A stretch of DNA of 23,387 nucleotides from a virus: positions 1 to 23,387 of IMG/VR virus record IMGVR_UViG_3300025874_000101, one strand, 5' to 3'. Position 1 is the first letter of the stretch. Each line of letters starts with the position of its first letter. Of this stretch, positions 4,844 through 20,344 are shown piece after piece. The position numbers and the translations under genes were made by a program. The notes below the pieces were generated by a model. It made no database searches. It worked only from the letters and a program-made list of their open reading frames with translations, and was not told where the DNA came from.

Positions 4844-7054
4844 TTATCTTAATATTTTAGACGTAGAACCTCTATTGTCATATCTTTTAATTCCTAAATC
4901 GTAAACCTTTTTTTGCACTGGACTAACCGGTGAATATAGGTTTTTGTTACAAGCCATTATTGCTAAACCAGAACTTATAGAAGCATCGTGCTTTGTTCTA
5001 TTGTTTATATTGAATTTACCCCAGTCCTCTAATGTTCTTTGGAAGTACATATCACCATACCCAGCTTCATTTCGTCCAACACAAGTTTCTATATATGATT
5101 CTATAGCTGCAGCGTGCGCTTGCTTTATATCTTCACTAGAGTTTGGTATACCACCTATTTCTCTTTCAGTTACAGATAATTTGTTTAATCTTTTATCAGG
5201 CCTATTCATTGAAAAGCCTCTATAGCCCCTTCTTTTAAAATGATACAGTAATCTAGGTTTATTGTTTTCCGCAAGTATTGGCATACCGTAAAATACGCAA
5301 GCCATCAAAACATCTTCAAAAAATATTTCAGCAGTTTGCGGTCTAGCTATATACTCTAAAAAGAATCTGTTAGGTGGAACATCTTCCATACTAAACTTAG
5401 TTAAACCGTGCAAAGCTCCGTTAGAACCTCTTTTATCAACTGTACCTGATATATCATAACTGTCACAACCAAAAGCGCCACAGTGTTCGTTACCTGGGTA
5501 CTTTGTATTACCTTTTATTATAACTCTGTTTTGCATCTGTACAGGTGGTACCCAACTAACGTTGAACCTACCGTTTTTGTTTGGTACAAATATTACCTTA
5601 GTATCTTTTATACCGTTTTCCCACATAAAACTTCCAGTGGTTATTATCGATGTATTTCTAAGGTCTTCGTTATAATCTATTTGTTCATATATCTTCGTTA
5701 AATTAAACAAAGATTGTTTTGCTTCATCTCTAAAAGCGTGTTGCTCTGTTCTTGGAAATTGGCGATAGTATTCATTTAAACCATCTTGATCTCCTTTTAA
5801 TCCTTCAACTTCATTTGTCCAGTATTCAATTACCCCTTGCCTTATAGGTGATCCGTCAGGACCTTCAGCTGGTTTTTTTGGCGTTTCAAATACAGGAAAT
5901 CCAAAAGAATCAATGTAGCCTTCGTAGTTCCATTCCATAGGAATGAACAAGCTATAGAGTCCCGAACGAGTCTGTCCATTTGCATTTCTTTTTGTTGCGT
6001 CGGAGTCATAGTATAGTTTTTTAAAGTTTTCGCCACCCTTATCTAAAGCATTTGATGTACTACCCATCATACACTTACCTATAATTTTTGAACCTAATCT
6101 CAAACAAGTTTTTGTAACTCTCCAGTTATTTAATATATTTGTAGGTCTTTCCCATTTACCACTTTCATCGTGGACTAATAGTTTTAATTTTTCACCGTCG
6201 TATGAGTTGTCCCCGGTGTTCTTCCAGTCGATCGTTGTATCGAGACCGGTGATTTCCTGTAGCTTTTCATTGGTGTCAAGCTTTTTTCTGGTAAATTTGG
6301 ACGCTGGTACCCTGTACGCGAGTTCTGTCTTCGGCCTGTCCATACCGTCCTGGATGGGTTTGAAGAAGAAGGGATAATTAACCGAGATGGGTACCACTTT
6401 ATCAGTAAACATCTTTTTTGCATCTGGACCAGACTTTGATAAAATTCCGAATCTAGAGTCTGTGGATATTGTAGCTTGATTAACCGTTTCGCCTGAGGCC
6501 ATGAAAGAAAACCCTGACCGTCTGTTCTTAAGATAGCACATTCCGTAACAACGTACATCTGATTTACAAGCTTCCCAGAATATAAAGAATAATCTGTTTG
6601 ACTCCCTAAAGTCTGCTGCCCCAACATCAATCTTGGACCACTGCAGGTACATGTAGTGAGTGCCAGTAATATAAGAAGGCTTGTCTTTGTTAAAAAACCA
6701 AAAACCTTCTTCACGCCTTTTAAATTCTGTATCAATATAGTCATACCATTTCTCTTTAAATTGTGAAGGGTATTCGTCCCAATCAAACACCGATTTTATT
6801 TTTGAAAGCTCTTTTGGGTATTCCATGTGTTTCCACTTGTCTCCTTCAAACTTAATAACATCATTTTCTTTTGGTAATGCTATTTTTACTCCTTGTATTT
6901 CGTAAATCTCACCTATCTGTCCGGTCTTACTGATTACAACTACGTCATGCTCTTCGTTATAACCGTACTCCCATTTCTTATATCTGTTTAACCTTTTTAA
7001 TATCTTAGGTTTAATATAGTCTTTTAATATTGCTACTAAGGTTTGTTCGTACAT
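4844..7054 (-). CDS. terL: terminase large subunit (packaging ATPase and nuclease)
   Basis: A 736-residue motor protein that drives DNA into the prohead and cuts concatemers. A strong Walker B with catalytic Glu is at about residue 297 (LKLLVHDES), followed by a coupling motif near 340 (CMMGSTSNALDKGG). A nuclease-domain acidic block lies near 530 (GAFGCDSYDISGT), and the QFPRTEQHAFRDE linker region near 440 is characteristic of large terminases. The Walker A position is unusual: near residue 178 it reads LKNRRSGFSFMASGE, lacking a clean GxxxxGKS/T, as in other divergent viral terminases. Its ATG overlaps the preceding stop (TAATG) and its stop abuts the portal ATG, so the genes are translationally coupled. 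The segment encoding about residues 130-290 is much richer in G+C than the rest of the gene (see findings). Confidence 0.88.
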   Translation of the reverse strand: MYEQTLVAILKDYIKPKILKRLNRYKKWEYGYNEEHDVVVISKTGQIGEIYEIQGVKIALPKENDVIKFEGDKWKHMEYPKELSKIKSVFDWDEYPSQFKEKWYDYIDTEFKRREEGFWFFNKDKPSYITGTHYMYLQWSKIDVGAADFRESNRLFFIFWEACKSDVRCYGMCYLKNRRSGFSFMASGETVNQATISTDSRFGILSKSGPDAKKMFTDKVVPISVNYPFFFKPIQDGMDRPKTELAYRVPASKFTRKKLDTNEKLQEITGLDTTIDWKNTGDNSYDGEKLKLLVHDESGKWERPTNILNNWRVTKTCLRLGSKIIGKCMMGSTSNALDKGGENFKKLYYDSDATKRNANGQTRSGLYSLFIPMEWNYEGYIDSFGFPVFETPKKPAEGPDGSPIRQGVIEYWTNEVEGLKGDQDGLNEYYRQFPRTEQHAFRDEAKQSLFNLTKIYEQIDYNEDLRNTSIITTGSFMWENGIKDTKVIFVPNKNGRFNVSWVPPVQMQNRVIIKGNTKYPGNEHCGAFGCDSYDISGTVDKRGSNGALHGLTKFSMEDVPPNRFFLEYIARPQTAEIFFEDVLMACVFYGMPILAENNKPRLLYHFKRRGYRGFSMNRPDKRLNKLSVTEREIGGIPNSSEDIKQAHAAAIESYIETCVGRNEAGYGDMYFQRTLEDWGKFNINNRTKHDASISSGLAIMACNKNLYSPVSPVQKKVYDLGIKRYDNRGSTSKILR

Positions 7055-7329
7055 TATCTAGATCTTCCTTCTGCAAAACCCCTAAAAGCTTTTTCTTCTT
7101 TAGCTTCTTTTGGGTTTTCATTTAACATAGCGTCTTCCTCTTCTATTCTAGCAAGTATTTCAAAAGCATCGAATATAGCTAATTTTTTAGTTGCGGCAGC
7201 ATTTTTAAGTCTGTCAGCTGATAAATCATCTTCTGAGTCAACGATCTTTTCTTCTGCCACTTTAATTAACTCCTTAACTGCTTTTTGCCCAGCTAGGATT
7301 ATATTCTTCTTGGTTTCCTTTGTGTTCAT
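7054..7329 (-). CDS. small helical protein before terL, possible small terminase subunit
   Basis: A 91-residue, charged, mostly helical protein (KKNIILAGQKAVKELIKVAE, then SADRLKNAAATKKLAIFDAF). It sits directly upstream of terL and overlaps it by one base. Small terminase subunits, which recognise packaging sites, often occupy this place, and the size is at the low end for that role. No clear helix-turn-helix can be pointed to, so the function is a positional guess. The first 56 bases overlap the end of the tandem GroES-like gene in another frame. No later Met exists before residue 68, so this start is the best available. Confidence 0.6.
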   Translation of the reverse strand: MNTKETKKNIILAGQKAVKELIKVAEEKIVDSEDDLSADRLKNAAATKKLAIFDAFEILARIEEEDAMLNENPKEAKEEKAFRGFAEGRSR

Positions 7330-7879
7330 ACTTAATTACAATATCATTAGATTTCATACAATAAACTCTTTGATCGTCTATTATAAAATCCCATTCACTA
7401 CCGGGCGTAAACCCTACTGTGTCTCCTGGATTGATATTAAGCGCTTTTAAAGAACTATTACCTATTTTTAATATACCAATAAGGTCTTGCTCTTTTTGTG
7501 ATCTTAAAGTGTCTTTGTTTTTTAAAGGTATTACAAAGCATCTGTCTCCAAATGATTTCCAATCCTCTGTATTTTTATACAAATATATTTGATCTGCCGA
7601 ACAAAAGTGTAAGTCATCTTTAAAATGAGATCTACTTCTTTTCTTATTACCTCGGATATCATAAAAAACTCTAAATACATTATGATGTATTATTATGATA
7701 TCGCCTTTTTTTATACTTGTTTTAAAAGCTTTTGGTGTTTCAACCACTATAGCTAAATTGTTTACAGACTTAAAGTCTTCAATTTTAGTGTTTAGTATTA
7801 ATGTAACGTCGCCTAGCTTTACCTTGTTATCGTATCTATCGCCAATAGGTTTGACGATAAAATCGTATAGACTTCTCAT
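7274..7879 (-). CDS. tandem GroES-like protein (two GroES-type folds), candidate co-chaperonin
   Basis: A 201-residue protein whose two halves each follow the GroES plan. Half one has FIVKPIGDRY, a strand-loop with VTLILNT where the GroES mobile loop lies, NLAIVVETP, then IKKGDIIIIHHNVF, and ends in ADQIYLYK. Half two has CFVIPL, LIGILKIGN, INPGDTVGFTPGS, then RVYCMKSNDIVIKYE. Escherichia coli GroES has the same order: RVIVKR, GGIVL, GEVLAVG, VKVGDIVIFND, then VLIMSESDILAIVE. The correspondence of VxxGDxVxF with a closing SDI strand in both halves is the main evidence. GroES caps the GroEL chamber; T4 gp31 does the same job for its capsid protein. Whether this protein binds GroEL is inference. 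It is double the length of normal GroES and sits beside the packaging and capsid genes, away from the groEL-groES pair. It might instead be a virion protein that reuses the fold. Confidence 0.55.
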   Translation of the reverse strand: MRSLYDFIVKPIGDRYDNKVKLGDVTLILNTKIEDFKSVNNLAIVVETPKAFKTSIKKGDIIIIHHNVFRVFYDIRGNKKRSRSHFKDDLHFCSADQIYLYKNTEDWKSFGDRCFVIPLKNKDTLRSQKEQDLIGILKIGNSSLKALNINPGDTVGFTPGSEWDFIIDDQRVYCMKSNDIVIKYEHKGNQEEYNPSWAKSS

Positions 7880-9272: not shown

Positions 9273-12230
9273 TTATGATTTTAATAATTCTATTTCTGCT
9301 TTTAATTCTTGAATTGCTTTTACTAAAACTGGTATAAGTCTTCCGTAGCTTGCTTCTAATTTTTCGGGATTTTTATCCTCAACCAACTGTGTGTAGTCAT
9401 CATTTACTTCTTGTAAATCTTGAGCAATAAAACCTAAGTCTTTAATTCCAACTTTTGCTCCATCTCTCATATTCCAATCAAACGTAACTGGTTTAAGTTT
9501 GCTAATTAAATCTAAACCATATTCAGAATCCTGTATGTTAGTTTTATCTCTTTTATCTGATAAACTTGTGATAGTTTGTACTTGACATTTTAAAGCAGTT
9601 ATAGATGAATTACCAAGAACAATCGTATTACTACCACCACCTACAGCATTGTAACCTATAGCAATTTCATTTGTTACACCGTCTGCAGAAGCAATAGCAT
9701 TATTACCTAAATAAGTCGAATTATTTATGACTGTCTCTCTTCCGCTAAAGTTTCCAGAATTATATCCTAAACAGGTGTTATTAGAACCTTCAACTATCTC
9801 ACTCATAGATTTAGTTCCTATTAAAGTATTTCGAAGAGCTGCCCCATCTTCTTCACCAAAAGCAACCCCAGCATCTGAACCTAAAGCTATATTTTGATAA
9901 CCTTCTATAAGATTTCCAAAAGTATTATCGCCAATACCAACGTTTTGATAACCATCAGAGTTTGTTCTTAGCTCTGCTAGAGAATTAGCACCTATACCTA
10001 TATTTTGATAAGAAGAAGTAATTGAATTACCAGAATTACTACCTATAAAAACATTTTGATAACCAGAAGTAATTGAATTACCAGAATTATATCCTAAAGT
10101 TGCATTTTGATAACCAGAGGTAATACGCTGTAATGCCGCTGAACCCATAGCCGAGTTTTGATAGCCAGAAGTAATGTCTCGCATAGACCTTAGACCAATA
10201 GCAACATTATTATTTCCACTTGCTCCAACTGCACCTTCTAAAGCTTGATAACCTAAAGAAACATTATGATAACCATTTACGTTGTTTTTCATAGCAAAAG
10301 TACCAACAGCTGTATTGTCATAACCTTCAACAGTATTTCTTAAAGATTCATAACCAACAGCAGTATTTTCATTTGCTAAATTATTTGCAAACAAACTTTC
10401 ATAACCAATAGCTGTATTTCTACGGCCAGGGCCAGCGGCTCTAACGTCTATCTCTAGTGCTAAGTCTCCACCGCCACCACCTAAGCTATCTTCGTCAATA
10501 TTTACCTCAAATACAATAGCAGTAGTCATTCCTGTAATAACCCCGTAATTATAATCGTCTGGCTCCTCCTCATAGCCTACAGGAATATCTATATAAGATA
10601 AAGTAAGACCATTTCCTAGAGATATATTAGTATAATTTCCAGCAACTGCGCCTCTCCTTCTATCACCCTCAGGATATATATTAGCAATAAAACCAACAGT
10701 ACTACTATATAAAGCCCTATAGCCAACACCTACATTAGCATCCCCGACAGACATTGTAAATCCAGCTTCAGCCCCTATCATTACATTATCAAATCCAGTG
10801 GTTATATTTTGTGAAGCTTTATAACCAATAGCTACATTAGTATCTCCTGAGGTTGTATCATTACCAGCGTTAAAACCTACCCAAGTATTCTTTGTTGCAG
10901 TTTCAGCTGCGTTACCAGCTCCTACACCTAAAGCTGTTTTACCGCCAGGAGTGTCTGAATCTGAATTGGTAACACCTGCTAAAGATGCAGGAATATTAGG
11001 CTTATTTAGTATAACAGCACTACCGGCAACAGCGTTCCAATCGGATTGAACATTTGAAACTTTCATAGCATTATTTTCTATTGCAGTCGCTTGTTCAGGC
11101 GTAATTGTTACAGTATCACCTGCCATAGCTTCAGTACTTGAGGATCCAAGTGTTAATGATGTAAAACTATCAGGGTTACCATCACTATAAGGTGTAAAAC
11201 CTAAAGCAGTTGTAATATCTTGAGATGTTATATTTAATGTTGCACTTGTTAAATACGTACTTTCGTCTACAGATCCATCAGCCTTTAAGAATTGGGCACT
11301 TGTTCCACCAGTTTTAACAAAACTAGTTGATTCAAGTAATCCACCAAATCTAGATGGAAGTGTAGAAAGAGAATTAATTGCTCTTGAAGTTCCACTTACA
11401 TTTGACCATGTGTCATTTTGTATTCTAAGATATGATGTATCTCCAGTAATTGTTTCTCCAGCATTGCTATCGTAATCTAGTAATAATACATCCACATTTC
11501 TAGCAGTTCCACCAAATATCTCACACGATATATGAGCTCCTTGCATGTTAGTAACTGTCGCTCCACCAGAGTGTCTAGATGTCATGTCTGCTGCTCTCAT
11601 GTAGCCTAAAGTACCACCTGAAGTATTTTTTACCTCTGACCATAGCATTGCTCCAATAGTAAAGTTATTTGTACCATTATTACCATTTGGATCAGTTCCT
11701 CTATAAGAGGCGTTATTGTATGCTCCAACAGTGTAGTTCTTTAATCCACCACTTCCCTCATAACGACTCCAAGATTCAGTTCCCGTAATATATCCTACTA
11801 ATTTGTCGTTAGTGTTTTTAGTCCTAGTTACTCCACCAGTATAGTAAGCATATTGAGAATCTACAGCAGGATTACCTAAAATCTCTGTCCAACTAGTTAC
11901 TGAATTTCCAGCAGATGAAGTCGTACTATAAAAAGTTGCCGAATTACCTATTTGTGGTCCAGCAGTCCCTTGTGGATCTGAATAAATTCTATCGATTGTC
12001 AAATCATTAAATTCTACATTATCTGTAGTGCTTAAGGTTTGATCGTATAATGTAATTGAATTCCCTTCTGAAATAGATATTTGATTACCAGATATACTTA
12101 AGGTTTGACTATCTGCAATCATATTACCTGGCGCTATGCGTACGTTATCTGTTCCATTGTACCCTACTATAAACTGTACATTTGCTGGGTCCGTCTGTTC
12201 TTGAAATTGTGAAAATTTTAAATTTGGCAT
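9273..12230 (-). CDS. trimeric tail fibre with YadA-head-like repeats and S74 chaperone end
   Basis: A 985-residue fibre. The N-terminal 85 residues (MPNLKFSQFQEQTDPANVQF, later NVRIAPGNMI) look like a virion-attachment domain. A middle module holds TGGTSAQFLKADGSVDESTY, also present in the other S74 fibre. From about residue 430 to 860 there are repeats of the GYQNxxxGxxS type, typical of left-handed YadA-head beta rolls in trimeric adhesins. They are interrupted near residues 512-606 by a non-repeat insert with a GGGGG run. The C-terminus is a peptidase S74 intramolecular chaperone: the SDKRDKTNI block carries the expected catalytic Ser and Lys, followed by DLGFIAQDLQEV and a final helix. 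In this family the chaperone trimerises the fibre and then cuts itself off just before the Ser. It is likely a receptor-binding or side fibre. Confidence 0.85.
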   Translation of the reverse strand: MPNLKFSQFQEQTDPANVQFIVGYNGTDNVRIAPGNMIADSQTLSISGNQISISEGNSITLYDQTLSTTDNVEFNDLTIDRIYSDPQGTAGPQIGNSATFYSTTSSAGNSVTSWTEILGNPAVDSQYAYYTGGVTRTKNTNDKLVGYITGTESWSRYEGSGGLKNYTVGAYNNASYRGTDPNGNNGTNNFTIGAMLWSEVKNTSGGTLGYMRAADMTSRHSGGATVTNMQGAHISCEIFGGTARNVDVLLLDYDSNAGETITGDTSYLRIQNDTWSNVSGTSRAINSLSTLPSRFGGLLESTSFVKTGGTSAQFLKADGSVDESTYLTSATLNITSQDITTALGFTPYSDGNPDSFTSLTLGSSSTEAMAGDTVTITPEQATAIENNAMKVSNVQSDWNAVAGSAVILNKPNIPASLAGVTNSDSDTPGGKTALGVGAGNAAETATKNTWVGFNAGNDTTSGDTNVAIGYKASQNITTGFDNVMIGAEAGFTMSVGDANVGVGYRALYSSTVGFIANIYPEGDRRRGAVAGNYTNISLGNGLTLSYIDIPVGYEEEPDDYNYGVITGMTTAIVFEVNIDEDSLGGGGGDLALEIDVRAAGPGRRNTAIGYESLFANNLANENTAVGYESLRNTVEGYDNTAVGTFAMKNNVNGYHNVSLGYQALEGAVGASGNNNVAIGLRSMRDITSGYQNSAMGSAALQRITSGYQNATLGYNSGNSITSGYQNVFIGSNSGNSITSSYQNIGIGANSLAELRTNSDGYQNVGIGDNTFGNLIEGYQNIALGSDAGVAFGEEDGAALRNTLIGTKSMSEIVEGSNNTCLGYNSGNFSGRETVINNSTYLGNNAIASADGVTNEIAIGYNAVGGGSNTIVLGNSSITALKCQVQTITSLSDKRDKTNIQDSEYGLDLISKLKPVTFDWNMRDGAKVGIKDLGFIAQDLQEVNDDYTQLVEDKNPEKLEASYGRLIPVLVKAIQELKAEIELLKS
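9885..10175 (-). repeat. 51-bp direct repeats encoding YadA-type coils
   Basis: On the plus strand the core TTTTGATA recurs, with one-base variants, at 9892, 9943, 10003, 10054, 10105 and 10156. The steps are 51, 60, 51, 51 and 51 bp. Each unit encodes 17 residues of the form ITSGYQNxxxGxxSGNS (20 in the longer one). Two neighbouring units share over 20 identical bases around GTAATTGAATTACCAG. Such repeats can change copy number by slippage or recombination and so alter fibre length. Confidence 0.85.
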
Positions 12231-12646: not shown

Positions 12647-12958
12647 TTATTTTTTAGTTTTATTATATGCTTCTTTTTCCCAGGGTAAGTTTTTTGCCCC
12701 TTCTTTCATTTGTTTGCGTGAATATTTTTTACCTTTCCAGTATACGTTTTGATCGTCATAGTCTAAATCACCCCTCTTCATTTGATCTATGTGTACCATT
12801 TCGTGTTTTATAACACTATTTAATTTAGCTGGTGATAAATTATTATTTATAACAATAGTACCATTGTTATTGGCTTTACCTAAAACGCCATCTTCCATAT
12901 CTATACTATAAATAGGAGTATTGTCTATATTATAAAATGGTTGAATTTTAAAAGCCAT
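12647..12958 (-). CDS. small HExxH metallopeptidase-like protein
   Basis: A 103-residue protein with a zinc-peptidase motif, H52-E53-M-V-H56, inside NSVIKHEMVHIDQMKRG. A Trp-Glu-Lys-Glu-Ala block near the end (E94 and E96) could give the third zinc ligand in gluzincin style. A TIVINNNLSP segment just before the motif resembles the edge strand that small metalloproteases use to hold substrate. It is much shorter than typical secreted peptidases, more like the small phage peptidase-like proteins found near tail genes. Substrate and activity are unknown: virion maturation or cell-wall entry would be guesses. The N-terminus MAFKIQPF is shared with the protein at 8823-9269. The candidate structured RNA ends 10 bp before its ATG. 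Confidence 0.6.
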   Translation of the reverse strand: MAFKIQPFYNIDNTPIYSIDMEDGVLGKANNNGTIVINNNLSPAKLNSVIKHEMVHIDQMKRGDLDYDDQNVYWKGKKYSRKQMKEGAKNLPWEKEAYNKTKK

Positions 12959-13899: not shown

Positions 13900-14124
13900 T
13901 TATTTTTTAAATTGTTCAAAATTTTCTCTTTGAGGCATGCTTTTAGCTCTTTGAAGTGGTGTTCCAAACATATACAGGGCGCTTGCAGCTTGATTTGGAT
14001 TAAATACAGGTTTAGCATTCCCCATTTCATTTGAAGGCACAGATACTCCTGGATTCTGCAAAACTGGTTGCTCAGGGTTTTGGAAAATTGGTTGACCCAA
14101 TAAGTTTTCATCTTGTTTTATCAT
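13900..14124 (-). CDS. small Asn/Pro/Gln-rich protein of unknown function
   Basis: A 74-residue protein, low in predicted structure, rich in Asn, Pro and Gln: MIKQDENLLGQPIFQNPEQP, then KPVFNPNQAASALYMFGTPL, and a polar basic end. It overlaps the preceding winged-helix-like gene by 17 bp. The composition suggests a flexible minor virion or linker protein. No family is recognised. Confidence 0.55.
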   Translation of the reverse strand: MIKQDENLLGQPIFQNPEQPVLQNPGVSVPSNEMGNAKPVFNPNQAASALYMFGTPLQRAKSMPQRENFEQFKK

Positions 14125-14548
14125 TGTTGACGTTTTTTATAGACACGCTTAATACTTTATCTGTATAAGTATCTCCTTTCATTATTTTGTTTCTACTACT
14201 CGTAGGTATATCATCTTGACCTAACATTATCCTATAAATTCTATTTATAAGTTGTTTGCCTTTAAATGATACTTTATATATATGATACTTTTGAGTAGTT
14301 CTATTTCTTTTTCGCCAAACAGAGATCCAGTTTTCCTTCAATAACTTATTCCATCTTCTATTATCCCAACTGTATGAAAACGTACCTGTTTTAAAATCTT
14401 GTTTAGTAAACATGTCTAAACAATCTAAATAAATTAATAGTTCTAGATCAGCGTCGTTTAAGTCATTATTTCTACATGCCCATTTTCGTATGATTCTGTA
14501 GTGTTTCAACAACCCTAATTTTTTAACATCACTAGCATCTATTCTCAT
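14108..14548 (-). CDS. possible winged-helix DNA-binding protein
   Basis: A 146-residue basic protein directly after groES, with an ATGA overlap. The first 100 residues read like a small winged helix: helices in KHYRIIRKWACRNNDLNDAD and LELLIYLDCLDMFTKQDF, a recognition-helix-like segment in WNKLLKENWISVWR, and a wing-like hairpin in NRTTQKYHIYKVSFKGKQLI. A KGK..I.R.Y step follows, as in MarR-like proteins. The role would be a regulator or DNA-end binding protein, but no signature residues fix this. Similar proteins are frequent in marine phage structural regions. The last 40 residues are polar and probably disordered. Confidence 0.5.
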   Translation of the reverse strand: MRIDASDVKKLGLLKHYRIIRKWACRNNDLNDADLELLIYLDCLDMFTKQDFKTGTFSYSWDNRRWNKLLKENWISVWRKRNRTTQKYHIYKVSFKGKQLINRIYRIMLGQDDIPTSSRNKIMKGDTYTDKVLSVSIKNVNNDKTR

Positions 14549-14811
14549 AAAACTACAACTATATCTTGCATTTTTATAACTTGATACGGATCACCTTCTA
14601 TTTCTATTGTGTGACCAGCGTGTCTATCGTAGTAAATTAAATCACCCTTGGTTAGACCTGCTTTGGTTGCTTCTTCTCCAGGAGATATTACAGATGCTTT
14701 AATGTATCTTATATCTTCCCTTTGTTTCTCGGCAAGAAGTAAACCGCCTTTAGTAGCGGCCACTCCTTCTTTTTGTTTTTTTATTATTAAGTTTCTACCT
14801 ATCGCCTTCAT
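14545..14811 (-). CDS. groES: co-chaperonin GroES
   Basis: An 88-residue GroES, slightly shorter than the cellular 94-97. The order is strand NLIIKK, then a mobile loop with KEGVAATKGGLLLAEKQ in which G22-G23-L24-L25-L26 stands for the GroEL-binding GGIVL of E. coli. ASVISPGEEA, TKGDLIYYDR and a closing VIKMQDIVVVL strand follow. The roof hairpin that closes the dome is short. It would cap the phage GroEL and possibly the host GroEL, making the folding chamber. Its ATG lies 17 bp inside the end of groEL, so the two are coupled, but in the order groEL then groES, the reverse of the usual bacterial operon. No Shine-Dalgarno sequence precedes it. Confidence 0.88.
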   Translation of the reverse strand: MKAIGRNLIIKKQKEGVAATKGGLLLAEKQREDIRYIKASVISPGEEATKAGLTKGDLIYYDRHAGHTIEIEGDPYQVIKMQDIVVVL

Positions 14812-16348
14812 TTGCTCTTAAATTATTAATTACACAATCAGTTGATAATATTGTAGTAGCTACAGATGCAGCATTTCTTAATGCACTTTTGGTTACCATT
14901 AACGGATCAATTATACCGTGTTTAACCATATCTACAGGTTCTCCTGTTATTGCATTTAAGCCAACACCTTTGTCTTGTGGCTGCGATGCCGTGATACCTG
15001 CATTTTCTAATATTGTAAAGTAAGGCGCTTTTATAGCTCTTAATAAAACTTCTTCACCTAATCCTTCACTTTTAATATATGTTGAAGCATTTAATAATGC
15101 AACGCCACCACCTGGTACAATACCTTCTTTTACGGCTGCTTTTGTTGCGCAAATAGCATCTTCAACTCTATCAGTTTTTTCTTTTAACTCTACTTCAGAG
15201 TTTGCACCAACTTTAACCACTGCAATTTTAGCAGTTAGCATTGATAATCTTTTTTCAAGCTTTATAACTTCCCAGCTTTTTAGCGTGTTATTCGTAAGCT
15301 TTTCTTTTATGCTACGTATTACATCCTTTATCTTTTCGGACGCCTCAGAGACCGTTATAACAGTGTCCTCGTGCGAGGTAACGCTTTTTAAACAAGATCC
15401 TAAATAATCTACGTCAATTGAATCAAGGTCATCGCCTAAATCTTCGTTAACTATTGTAGCTCCAGTTAGTAAGGAAAGATCTTCAAGTACTTCTCGTTTG
15501 CTAATACCATAAGTAGGAGCATTGATTACATTTACTTTTAAATTACCTTTCTTTTTATTGGTAGCCAGAGTTGATAAAACACCTTGTTCTAAATCGCCTA
15601 TAATAAGCAAAGGTTTATTGTTTTTTATTACGTACTCCAGCACTTTCTGTATATCTCTTATAGTATTAACTGGTGATTCCATGATTAACACTAATGGATT
15701 TTCTAATTCCGCTGTTTTTGTTTGTTCGTTTGTAATGAAATGAGAATTTGTTAAACCTTTATCATAAGGTACACCTTCAATTAATTCAGAAACAGTTTTA
15801 CCGTCACCGGCAGTTTCCATCATTACAATACCTGTATTATCTACAGATCTAAACGCATCAGCTATAATAGAACCTAATTCATTGTCGTTGTTAACGGATA
15901 TAGAAGCTATATTATCTAGCATATCTCCTTTTACATCAACCGCTAGCTTTTCTAAATACTTAATTACTTTTTCAACTGCAGAATTAATACCATCTTTTAT
16001 TTCTCTGGCATTTTTCTTTTCTGAAACAGCATAAGCTTCTTTTAATATAGCGTGTGCTAAAACAGTTGCGGTAGTTGTACCGTCACCTGCTTCTTGAACA
16101 GTTTTTCTAGCGGCTTCTTTTAACAGTGTAGATCCCATATTTTCAACCGGATCAAACAATATTATTGAATCAGCTACAGTAACACCATCTTTTGTTATAA
16201 CAGGTTTGCCTGTGCCGTCTTCTAGCATCACGCATTTACCGCCGGCTCCTAATGTAGAGCTGACAGCATTTGCTAACTTTTCTATTCCTTTAAATACTTG
16301 ATCTCTAGCATCGTCACCAAAGTTCAAGTTTTTGACAATTCCGTTCAT
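14795..16348 (-). CDS. groEL: chaperonin GroEL (phage-encoded, tail-less)
   Basis: A 517-residue chaperonin, full length except for the C-terminus. ATP-site elements are present: ITKDG (D54, the E. coli D52), GDGTTTATVLA (D89, the E. coli D87), VEDAICATKAAVKEGIVPGG with the Asp equivalent to D398, and GLNAITGE with GIIDP. All three domains are present, so ATP-driven folding is expected. Oddities: TLGPKG is TLGAGG. The apical groove has changes at positions equal to E. coli Y199 (L), Y203 (H), L234 (Q), V263 (A) and V264 (T), while F204, L237 and L259 are kept. The C-terminal Gly-Gly-Met tail is absent, with the protein ending ANEGDR. It heads the cassette with groES, after a leader holding pentamer repeats and a hairpin. 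Confidence 0.95.
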   Translation of the reverse strand: MNGIVKNLNFGDDARDQVFKGIEKLANAVSSTLGAGGKCVMLEDGTGKPVITKDGVTVADSIILFDPVENMGSTLLKEAARKTVQEAGDGTTTATVLAHAILKEAYAVSEKKNAREIKDGINSAVEKVIKYLEKLAVDVKGDMLDNIASISVNNDNELGSIIADAFRSVDNTGIVMMETAGDGKTVSELIEGVPYDKGLTNSHFITNEQTKTAELENPLVLIMESPVNTIRDIQKVLEYVIKNNKPLLIIGDLEQGVLSTLATNKKKGNLKVNVINAPTYGISKREVLEDLSLLTGATIVNEDLGDDLDSIDVDYLGSCLKSVTSHEDTVITVSEASEKIKDVIRSIKEKLTNNTLKSWEVIKLEKRLSMLTAKIAVVKVGANSEVELKEKTDRVEDAICATKAAVKEGIVPGGGVALLNASTYIKSEGLGEEVLLRAIKAPYFTILENAGITASQPQDKGVGLNAITGEPVDMVKHGIIDPLMVTKSALRNAASVATTILSTDCVINNLRANEGDR

Positions 16349-16378
16349 ATTTAATTTAATTTGATTTGATTTAATTTA
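16349..16378 (-). promoter_or_regulatory. A/T-rich pentamer leader of groEL
   Basis: Immediately before the groEL ATG the plus strand reads six pentamers: ATTTA, ATTTA, ATTTG, ATTTG, ATTTA, ATTTA. On the mRNA this is a run of UAAAU and CAAAU units with no Shine-Dalgarno sequence. Unstructured A-rich leaders favour initiation in Bacteroidota. The coiled-coil gene at 8364 has a shorter version. Confidence 0.6.
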
Positions 16379-16384
16379 CCCTTT

Positions 16385-16430
16385 TTAGGTATACGAGTAT
16401 TATTACTCGTTTTATTGGATTTTTACCTAA
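16385..16430 (-). promoter_or_regulatory. nested inverted repeats and shared motif copy 2 before groEL
   Basis: TTAGGTA (16385-16391) pairs with TACCTAA (16424-16430). Inside it ACGAGTA (16393-16399) pairs with TACTCGT (16404-16410) around a 4-nt loop TTAT. The second arm includes the 16-bp motif also found at 8396-8411, which there lacks the hairpin partner. It starts right at the upstream gene's stop codon. It could be a terminator-antiterminator, a processing site or an operator; there is no U run on the coding side, so a simple terminator is unlikely. Confidence 0.45.
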
Positions 16431-16832: not shown

Positions 16833-17261
16833 TTAACAATTTGCCCTAGCTGTCACAACTCCTTGAGCGTTTGTTGAGAATGCAGCGTTTACTTCTACGG
16901 AGTTTGTAGGGAAATATTTACGTGATTTATTAACCATTGGAGAATTACCAGCTGCATCAAAATAACAGTAATCATTTACAACCGGACCTGGCCCACTACC
17001 ATTGTGATATGCTGTAATCTGATTACTTGTGGGTTCGTTACAAGGTATAGGTTCCGTGGGGTTACCTGAACACGTAAAAGCTGTTAAACTAGAAGAATCA
17101 TAATTTCTAAAATTCAACAATCTATCCTTTGACCCACTATAAGAGGAATCGAACTTGCTAGCTACAGCGTCCGCAAAAGAATCAACTAAATCATCTGTTG
17201 TTGGATTTACTGTATTAACAACGTCTTGTAATGAGAAAGTGCTGGTGTTAGGTACGCCCAT
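16833..17261 (-). CDS. small fibre-associated protein (TFSLQDVVNxV type)
   Basis: A 142-residue protein starting MGVPNTSTFSLQDVVNTVNP, then DDLVDSFADAVASKFDSSYS and DRLLNFRNYDSS. This N-terminal layout is one I recognise from proteins beside fibres in phages of flavobacterial hosts. The C-terminal half has four Cys (FTCSGNPTEPIPCNE, DYCYFDAAGN, final RANC) and reads as a small beta domain. The ATG overlaps the S74 fibre stop by one base (TAATG). It may be a fibre tip or adaptor. Confidence 0.6.
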   Translation of the reverse strand: MGVPNTSTFSLQDVVNTVNPTTDDLVDSFADAVASKFDSSYSGSKDRLLNFRNYDSSSLTAFTCSGNPTEPIPCNEPTSNQITAYHNGSGPGPVVNDYCYFDAAGNSPMVNKSRKYFPTNSVEVNAAFSTNAQGVVTARANC

Positions 17262-20200
17262 TATTTTTCTAGTTTCTCTAATCTTGCTTCTAACTCAGCA
17301 ATTTTAGCAATTAATAAATCTATATAAGCAACAGACTTAAACCCTTGACTGTCTTCTCTTACAAACTCAGGATTAGTCTTCTCTAACTCTTGAGCTATAA
17401 CACCGTATCTTTTCTGTCCTTTTTCTGTTTTTAATTCAAAAGTTTTCCAATCTGCTTTAACTCTATTATCACATACTTGTTCAATATTTTCTTTTAGTCT
17501 TTCATCAGAAGATAATATGAAGTTTGTAGCTGTAACGGTATTGCTGAAAGTGGTTGCACCAGTTCCGCCCATCCACATCCTAGTAGCGTGACCGCCTCCG
17601 TTACCTAATCTAATAGCAAATCCACTATTACCATTATCTCTTCCTTGAATCACTGTTGCTCCAAACTTTCCAAATGGATCCTCTGTACCTGAACTCGGGT
17701 TAGTTGTATATATAAAAGTATGATCTGCTAAAGCGTTTGCTTGCCCTTCTGTAACATAGCTTCTAATACCTATATCCCTCCAGGTTTGATTATCGGTTGC
17801 TGATATTCTAATTCCATTGTTAGTACCAGATATTATGTCTAATTGCTGCGTAGGTAAGTTTGCTGTGTTTATACCAACATAGCCGCCATAAGGGTTTAGT
17901 ACTATTGGTCTACCAGTTGTAGCTGCGTTATTAAGTCCTTGTATATACTGTTGACTATTTAAACCAGTCGCAAAATTAAGCTTACTGTCATAATTACTAG
18001 AAGACTTAACGCTAAGACCAGCTCTAGTTGAAACGTCACCTCTACTTACAGCGTAACTGGAAACATTTCTAAAAGAAGTAAGTCTAGCATCTGGGTTAGT
18101 TGTTCCAACACCTAAATTACCTCCATTGATATAACTATTGGTATCTGCATTTATTCTAACATTAAGATTATTTGAATCATCTCTAAGTAATAATTGAGCG
18201 TCTCCGTTTTCAAAATACAATCCACTATCTGCTGTGTTAGCGCTATTTCTAGCTTGTAAAACCCAAGCAGTTGTAGCTGTAGCATTGGGAACGTAGAATC
18301 TATTAGCAGCAGAAATTCCATTTACAACTAACGGGTAATTAGGACCAGTAGTTCCAATACCTACGTTACCTGCAGTATCAATAGTCATCCTTACAGCTGT
18401 TGTGTCGTTGTTGTAAAATTGAAGCTTATTGTTGCTTGAATTAAACTTTATAGCAGCCGCTTGAGACAGGCCAGCATCGACATCTCTAAAAATTATACCC
18501 GAGTCTGTTTCTGTGGTATCACTTATGTATATATAAGCTTCAGGACCTTTAACCTCTAGAAGCCCTGCGGGAGTAGTCGTTCCTACCCCTATTTTACCAT
18601 CAACTATAACATTAGAGGACTCAACATTTCCATCCTCACCTCCAAACCTCCAACCTTCAGTAGCTGTATGTTCGTATTCAGCACCCGTATAACCTGGATC
18701 TGTAGTTGTTGGTGTTATTACTTCATCAGCTAATGGATATATACACACTTCAGCTGTTGTAGTACTTCCCCCGTTATGCTTGGCTTCGATGGAAAAATCT
18801 TCGTTATTATTAGATGTTATCCTTAGCGTAACTTCTGTGTAGTCACCGTTAGAAGATTTAACATGTATATCCGTTGAATGATTTACTGTTATATCAAAAG
18901 TACAAGCAAATACCACACCACTGCTTGTACCAGTCATTGTCATCTTTAAAATAGAAGCAAGATTGTCACCATTAACAGTAGCCAGCATAGTGTACGTACT
19001 AGCATTTATACCTGATCTAGTAAACTGTACCATTCTAGCTCCAGTTTCAGTTGTCAAGTATGTATTTGAATCTACACTTCCATCCGCTTTTAAGAATTGA
19101 GAACTTGTTCCGCCGTCTTTGATCAGTGAGTCAGCGGTAGTGCTTCCGCTTACTATTAAGGTACCATTAGGAATTTCTACATTGTTATCATTATCTGTTA
19201 CCAGCGTATTAACTCCACCGTTATTTCTCAGCTTTATAGTGCTTCCGTCACTAACTATATAAGACCCATCGCCTAGTCCTTCAATATCACCTAACGAAAA
19301 ACTAGCGGCTGAAGAAGTAACAAGTGCTCTAAATACGTCGTCTCCTGTTCCGTCTGTAAGTGATGAGACCTTAAATTCACCTTGAGCTATTGTATCAGCA
19401 TTTAACTTAATAACACTAGCACCATCATCTATTGCAATATTAGTACCTGCTGTTTTACCTCCTGATGAAAGCGTTAAAATATCATCAGTGGTATAAATAA
19501 TACCATTAGGCCCACTAGACATTTCAAGTTCTCCATCTATAGTTAGTGTTCCTGTAAACGTATCTGTTGTGTTTAGTAAGTAATCACCAGACGCGGTTGA
19601 AATAGCGCTTGTTACAAAAGCTGTTGTAGCTATCTTTGTAGTATTGTTACCAGCTGTTTGAGTTACACCAGTTGTAGAAGTATTTATTGTGCCATTTAAG
19701 TCACCTAATAATGTAGTTGCATATACCGATGCCCATTTAGAGGTAGTAGTACCAAGTGCCATTGTATTATTAGCGGCAGGTCTAAAACCACCAGTATGCA
19801 TATTCCCTATAGCAATACTATTTGCTCTGAATGCTATTTTACTTGCGGAAAATTGTATATCGTTTACACCAGAAACCCCACCAATGTCTAAACCATCATA
19901 GTATATACTGGTTATACCTGTTTGAGCAGGTGTTACAGCAATATCATCGGCATTAATAGTCATACCTGTTCCAGCTCCTACGTTCAATGTAGGTATAGGT
20001 CCAGATAAATTTGTTCCTGTTAAACCATCTCCAGCACCAACCCCTGTTATATCACCTTGCGGAACTCCTGCTACAGCATTGTCAACGTATGTTTTATTAG
20101 CAGCATCTGTTCCAGAGGTTACTGTATCAACACCTTGAATACGACCTGTGCCACCTAAAACTATTTGTCCATTACCTACCGTTACAGTACCCTGCGTATT

Positions 20201-20344
20201 TAGTGTACCGTCAGTTGATATATTACCTGCCACATCTAACATCTCGCTAGGATTATCAGTTCCTATACCGACTCTATTATTCGCGGTGTCTACGTATAAA
20301 ACGTCTGTATCTACTTGTACGGTATTTAAGAACTGTATCGCCAT
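17261..20344 (-). CDS. large tail fibre with S74 chaperone end
   Basis: A 1027-residue fibre. The N-terminus (MAIQFLNTVQVDTDVLYVDT) leads into VGIGTDNPSEMLDVAGNIS, the first of several hGIGTxxPxxxLxVxG repeats. Others lie near residues 590 (VGVGTTTP-like), 655 (NVGIGTTGPNYPLVVNG), 740 (LGVGTTNPDARL) and 825 (YVGINTANLPTQQLDI). A module with DGGTSSQFLKADGSVDSNTY near residue 420 is also found in the other S74 fibre. The C-terminus is peptidase S74: SSDERLKENIEQV holds the catalytic Ser and Lys, followed by RYGVIAQELEKTNPEFV and a final coiled coil (IAKIAELEARLEKLEK). The chaperone trimerises the shaft and then cleaves itself off before the Ser. It is likely a receptor-binding fibre. Confidence 0.85.
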   Translation of the reverse strand: MAIQFLNTVQVDTDVLYVDTANNRVGIGTDNPSEMLDVAGNISTDGTLNTQGTVTVGNGQIVLGGTGRIQGVDTVTSGTDAANKTYVDNAVAGVPQGDITGVGAGDGLTGTNLSGPIPTLNVGAGTGMTINADDIAVTPAQTGITSIYYDGLDIGGVSGVNDIQFSASKIAFRANSIAIGNMHTGGFRPAANNTMALGTTTSKWASVYATTLLGDLNGTINTSTTGVTQTAGNNTTKIATTAFVTSAISTASGDYLLNTTDTFTGTLTIDGELEMSSGPNGIIYTTDDILTLSSGGKTAGTNIAIDDGASVIKLNADTIAQGEFKVSSLTDGTGDDVFRALVTSSAASFSLGDIEGLGDGSYIVSDGSTIKLRNNGGVNTLVTDNDNNVEIPNGTLIVSGSTTADSLIKDGGTSSQFLKADGSVDSNTYLTTETGARMVQFTRSGINASTYTMLATVNGDNLASILKMTMTGTSSGVVFACTFDITVNHSTDIHVKSSNGDYTEVTLRITSNNNEDFSIEAKHNGGSTTTAEVCIYPLADEVITPTTTDPGYTGAEYEHTATEGWRFGGEDGNVESSNVIVDGKIGVGTTTPAGLLEVKGPEAYIYISDTTETDSGIIFRDVDAGLSQAAAIKFNSSNNKLQFYNNDTTAVRMTIDTAGNVGIGTTGPNYPLVVNGISAANRFYVPNATATTAWVLQARNSANTADSGLYFENGDAQLLLRDDSNNLNVRINADTNSYINGGNLGVGTTNPDARLTSFRNVSSYAVSRGDVSTRAGLSVKSSSNYDSKLNFATGLNSQQYIQGLNNAATTGRPIVLNPYGGYVGINTANLPTQQLDIISGTNNGIRISATDNQTWRDIGIRSYVTEGQANALADHTFIYTTNPSSGTEDPFGKFGATVIQGRDNGNSGFAIRLGNGGGHATRMWMGGTGATTFSNTVTATNFILSSDERLKENIEQVCDNRVKADWKTFELKTEKGQKRYGVIAQELEKTNPEFVREDSQGFKSVAYIDLLIAKIAELEARLEKLEK

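Follow-up and report, generated by a model that had tools for sequence, protein, structure and literature searches.

A groEL-first chaperonin pair, likely dedicated and vertically inherited, in a lineage of tailed phages

We here describe a groEL–groES pair, arranged with groEL first, on a 23,387-bp virus fragment (the window, i.e. the whole stretch of DNA that was analysed; GC content 35.5%), which is a fragment of a tailed phage. We consider it likely that the pair constitutes a dedicated, vertically inherited phage chaperonin which serves the folding of phage proteins. A phage lineage would then possess a complete chaperonin machine as a lasting component, with a gene order and a ring–lid interface of its own, and not as an occasional host gene.

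Both genes lie on the minus strand. The first cassette gene, groEL (14795–16348), encodes a group I chaperonin of 517 aa (Pfam PF00118, 1.4e-59; PHROG 5725, 9.6e-135), and the second, groES (14545–14811), a co-chaperonin of 88 aa (Pfam PF00166, 4.1e-11; PHROG GroES, 1.8e-11). Both exceed the Pfam gathering score (Cpn60_TCP1 and Cpn10, respectively), and profile PF00118 covers GroEL over its full length (positions 1–487 of 490). The genes share 17 bp (14795–14811, minus strand), an overlap which is a candidate for translational coupling. The positions, the upstream placement of groEL and the 17 shared bp, all given in an earlier note on this DNA, were confirmed in the sequence. The same holds for the intact ATP site proposed there: the residues for ATP binding and hydrolysis (D52, GDGTTT, D398, G415 and D495) are all present in the window GroEL and invariant in 76 of 76 lineage representatives sharing less than 90% identity. 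GroES matches the Cpn10 profile and carries the hydrophobic motif of the mobile loop, which reads TKGGLLL in the window and is largely conserved in an alignment of 31 relatives. Compared to the nearest clearly diverged relative (L087), dN/dS amounts to 0.08 for groEL and 0.10 for groES, with a range of 0.07–0.25 for the pair; both genes are under purifying selection. A chance reading frame or a falsely assigned GroES is ruled out by the Pfam matches, the dN/dS values and the conservation.

In agreement with the earlier note, the pair is found amid virion genes. Based on Pfam and PHROG, its surroundings comprise the large terminase subunit (4844–7054, minus strand; PHROG 6681, 4e-165), a portal, a capsid-type protein and two large tail/fibre proteins, as well as a holin. 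The terminase served as lineage marker, which renders the sampling independent of the chaperonins. IMG/VR was scanned with alignments of the terminase, GroEL and a two-domain GroES-like protein (see below), and repeated contigs were removed. Among the related viral contigs, 101 distinct ones carry groEL; in every one of them groES follows in the same orientation, at a distance of −17 bp (61 contigs), −4 bp (18), −20 bp (11), −1 bp (8) or +1 bp (3). In the terminase scan, which involves no selection for chaperonins, 13 contigs extend more than 9.5 kb upstream of the terminase, and groEL was present in each of them, namely 11 times at the locus and twice elsewhere in the record. The linked pair, previously regarded as uncommon, is thus the rule in this lineage, and it also occurs in the public Elemovirus and MW202828 genomes.

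Bacterial operons show the opposite order, as had been assumed: groES precedes groEL in 51 of 51 sampled loci (36 Bacteroidota, 15 Pseudomonadota; spacing 8–168 bp), and E. coli K-12 likewise reads groES then groEL. Among other phages, Immuto and Bacteroides phage DAC23 have groES first, while in Maribacter phage Panino groEL is followed by one small gene and then an unannotated groES. The latter is the product annotated as hypothetical protein at 38129–38395 of Panino, a GroES (PHROG 3188, 1.2e-5) downstream of groEL. One record, CAKLQH020000021 ('Acinetobacter phage MD-2021a'), is probably mislabelled; the stretch resembles a bacterial chromosome (glpD, pckG, acrB, groS-groL).

The 76 GroEL representatives were further compared, residue by residue, with those of 36 Bacteroidota hosts. 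At the eight classic apical hydrophobic positions only 33% of the cells match the hosts, and the shifts lead to shared residues, i.e. L234Q in 74, V264M in 75, V263A in 66 and Y203H in 56 of the 76 representatives, while 36 of 36 hosts keep L234, V264 and Y203. The window GroEL retains F204, L237 and L259 and carries the changes Y199L, Y203H, L234Q, V263A and V264T. Judged from the alignment, the apical surface that grips GroES and substrate is remodelled consistently across the lineage, which would fit a ring and a lid that are mutually adapted. Alternatively, the remodelled groove could signify weak or no GroES binding, by analogy with the chaperonin of phage EL. At the inter-ring contact positions, 13% of the cells match the host consensus, compared to 77% in the hosts. 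The canonical double-ring contacts are mostly lost, and the equatorial part lacks about 7 residues at one site and about 5 at another. From the sequence, either a single ring or a modified double ring would be predicted. Variation at the inter-ring contact positions is also seen in some other phage GroELs.

Apart from the cassette, the window encodes a second GroES-like protein of 201 aa, which the earlier note does not mention. Its gene lies two genes before the terminase (7274–7879, minus strand; PHROG 13932, co-chaperonin GroES, 9.5e-23), and the predicted structure (AF2, pLDDT 86) shows two Cpn10 folds in tandem. The best Foldseek match is a Cpn20 chain (7ekq_R, E = 1.9e-5 over 199 columns, with a TM score of only about 0.53), followed by many Cpn10 chains. 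The window copy does not reach the Pfam cut-off for Cpn10, and a PDB sequence search with the profile of the two-domain protein returned no genuine match, so that only the fold search revealed the likeness. The gene is present in all 67 terminase loci with upstream sequence. A distant two-domain version occurs in Cellulophaga phage phi46:3, a member of a sister group, whose 73-kb genome contains no groEL anywhere; in Gundel_1 there is neither a groEL nor a two-domain gene directly before the terminase. Since phi46:3 lacks groEL, its two-domain protein could work only with a host GroEL. For the same reason, the co-occurrence of the two-domain gene with groEL, perfect by tblastn, was dropped as proof of a partnership. 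Probably, the two-domain protein serves as a further lid or represents an older one. Either an ancestral lid for the host's GroEL may have been retained next to the phage groEL, or the protein may be a repurposed structural one; a role in virion structure or in packaging, in place of one as GroEL lid, is also conceivable.

The earlier note had argued that the reverse order speaks against simple capture of a host operon, and had proposed that trees of both proteins be examined for a common viral clade. In the GroEL tree, a branch with a support of 97/90 keeps all 17 groEL-first rows together on one side, which is consistent with a single change of gene order; the deep branches are long, which makes the rooting of the viral group and its internal branching uncertain. 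In the GroES tree, which comprises only 98 columns and is used as supporting evidence only, the phage proteins, Callevirus included, are split from those of bacteria with a support of 99/100. A common viral group is thus seen in both trees, and neither protein is nested within one host genus. In raw identity, the window GroEL shares 43% with a Flavobacterium-type host protein, slightly more than with the GroELs of Elemovirus (39%) and Panino (36%), which would favor a recent capture of a host groESL operon followed by rearrangement; the values for ctfjg026 and phage EL are 34% and 29%. However, raw identity to the host protein misleads because the phage branches are long. Such a capture is moreover at odds with the uniform gene order across the lineage and with the position of the pair in the viral group of both trees, and it is unlikely because all sampled bacterial loci, including the 36 of Bacteroidota, are groES first; we thus regard it as very improbable. 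As far as the compared sequences tell, the reversed order is characteristic of one viral GroEL group and was not copied from a present-day host operon.

The changed apical GroES-binding residues and the lost inter-ring contacts would also be expected of a phage GroEL that merely prevents aggregation as a holdase, similar to gp146 of Pseudomonas phage EL, with the adjacent GroES being a weak or vestigial partner. In line with this, the chaperonin of phage EL shows no interaction with E. coli GroES and acts without encapsulation (PMC7185714). However, gp146, although likewise a phage-encoded chaperonin ATPase ring, has no adjacent groES, and neither have the GroELs of phages K364 and phiKT1024. 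In the present lineage, by contrast, groES adjoins groEL in every contig, is under purifying selection and keeps its hydrophobic mobile-loop motif, which leaves the holdase reading with a small probability. The GroES-like proteins might instead act mainly with the host GroEL, with the phage GroEL having another role. A precedent is T4 gp31, a phage co-chaperonin of GroES fold which uses host GroEL; here the phage brings its own. The two-domain protein of phi46:3, encoded in a genome devoid of groEL, speaks for this possibility, whereas the small groES abuts groEL throughout and its divergence from host GroES parallels that of groEL, and we give the idea hardly any credence.

We thus favor a dedicated chaperonin consisting of an autonomous GroEL ring and its own co-evolved GroES lid, which would have been long inherited in a Bacteroidota-infecting, podovirus-like lineage. 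Most likely it would fold phage virion proteins during infection, independent of host GroES, by the usual cycle of ATP-driven binding, lid closure and release. The overlapping, groEL-first translation would supply the lid in step with the ring, the members of the pair would bind each other and not host partners, and the clients would be capsid, tail or fibre proteins. Because the inter-ring contacts are lost and the apical groove is less hydrophobic, one may speculate that the chaperonin works as a naturally occurring single ring, assisted by a weakened lid of its own and by a second, double-domain lid, i.e. one ring using two lids. We regard this extension as tentative and rather doubtful. 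An engineered single-ring GroEL works once its lid is weakened (PMC5575113), and nature would, if the prediction is true, reproduce this combination. A single ring or a ring with two lids would further provide a natural test case for ring–lid co-evolution, and for the question of why a phage insulates the folding of its virion from the host.

Related arrangements exist in public genomes. Elemovirus (Flavobacterium phage elemo) and Podoviridae sp. ctfjg026 (MW202828), both annotated, are likewise groEL first with an overlapping groES, and both possess a two-domain GroES-like gene just before the terminase, as in the window. Callevirus/Pervagoviridae (Cellulophaga phages phi38:1 and Calle_1) also encode GroEL, GroES and a two-domain Cpn10 before the terminase; unlike in the window, their pair is located among the DNA replication genes, with groES ahead of groEL and separated from it by one gene. 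Cpn10 is listed among the core genes of Pervagoviridae (PMC8776804), and mass spectrometry has revealed phi38:1 GroEL both in infected cells and in samples of free virions (PMC13288928). A 2017 study reported GroEL from 36 genomes of the marine group around phi38:1 (PMC5332604), and in virioplankton the order of the chaperonin subunit genes was linked to viral GroEL phylogeny (Marine et al. 2017, as cited in PMC9611531). Both that phages of this group possess a GroEL and that gene order is linked to its phylogeny have thus been published, and these GroELs belong to marine phages, as that of the window probably does. In the text on Marine et al. (via the citing paper) and in the portions of PMC5332604 available, we found no description of the apical and inter-ring changes or of the two-domain GroES.

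Since the terminase relatives in GTDB assemblies reside mostly in Bacteroidota, the hosts, as far as this comparison indicates, are probably Flavobacteriia and their kin, and the virus probably infects marine Bacteroidota. Some terminase relatives (L217, L219, L224, L227, L230, L233 and L237) occur in assemblies labelled Woesearchaeota, Pacearchaeota, Aliivibrio or Pseudomonadales, where they probably represent mis-binned phage contigs. In both large tail/fibre proteins of the window (9273–12230 and 17261–20344), the C-terminus bears an intramolecular chaperone domain of the S74 endosialidase type; the two may be folding-demanding clients. A small, putative metallopeptidase-like protein with an HEMVH stretch is encoded at 12647–12958; its DUF6782 match lies below the cut-off, and relatives are present in 108 of 124 groEL loci. 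Rfam and tRNA searches of the whole window gave no matches.

The cassette contains a third gene (14108–14548, minus strand), also absent from the earlier note, which overlaps groES by 4 bp and encodes a protein of 146 aa with a predicted MarR-type winged-helix (AF2, pLDDT 89). The Foldseek matches listed belong to the MarR family or to related regulators with a winged helix (best E = 4.6e-3, TM score about 0.5), a moderate similarity of the model which is suggestive of a MarR fold. The gene is present in all 124 groEL loci, adjoins groES in the common gene orders and, with a median identity of 73%, is more conserved than groEL or groES. In the window it follows groES on the same strand, whereas in ctfjg026 it is convergent to groES and in Elemovirus it was not found in the stretch examined. 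Its product may regulate the cassette.

Upstream of groEL lies an 82-bp gap (16349–16430, minus strand) with an AT-rich leader of AAATT/AAATC pentamers. Across 87 distinct leaders, the 30 nt before groEL (16349–16378 in the window) have a mean GC content of 9.6%, pentamer repeats occur in 72, and the last 20 nt contain no Shine-Dalgarno-like motif. The Bacteroidota promoter motif TAnnTTTG was rejected as a candidate, as it was found upstream of groEL in 3 of 90 cases, which is no excess over shuffled sequence (3.9). The gap further contains a 7-bp hairpin (ACGAGTA-TTAT-TACTCGT, 16393–16410), which recurs in the relatives L009 and L163 and, with one change, in L087.
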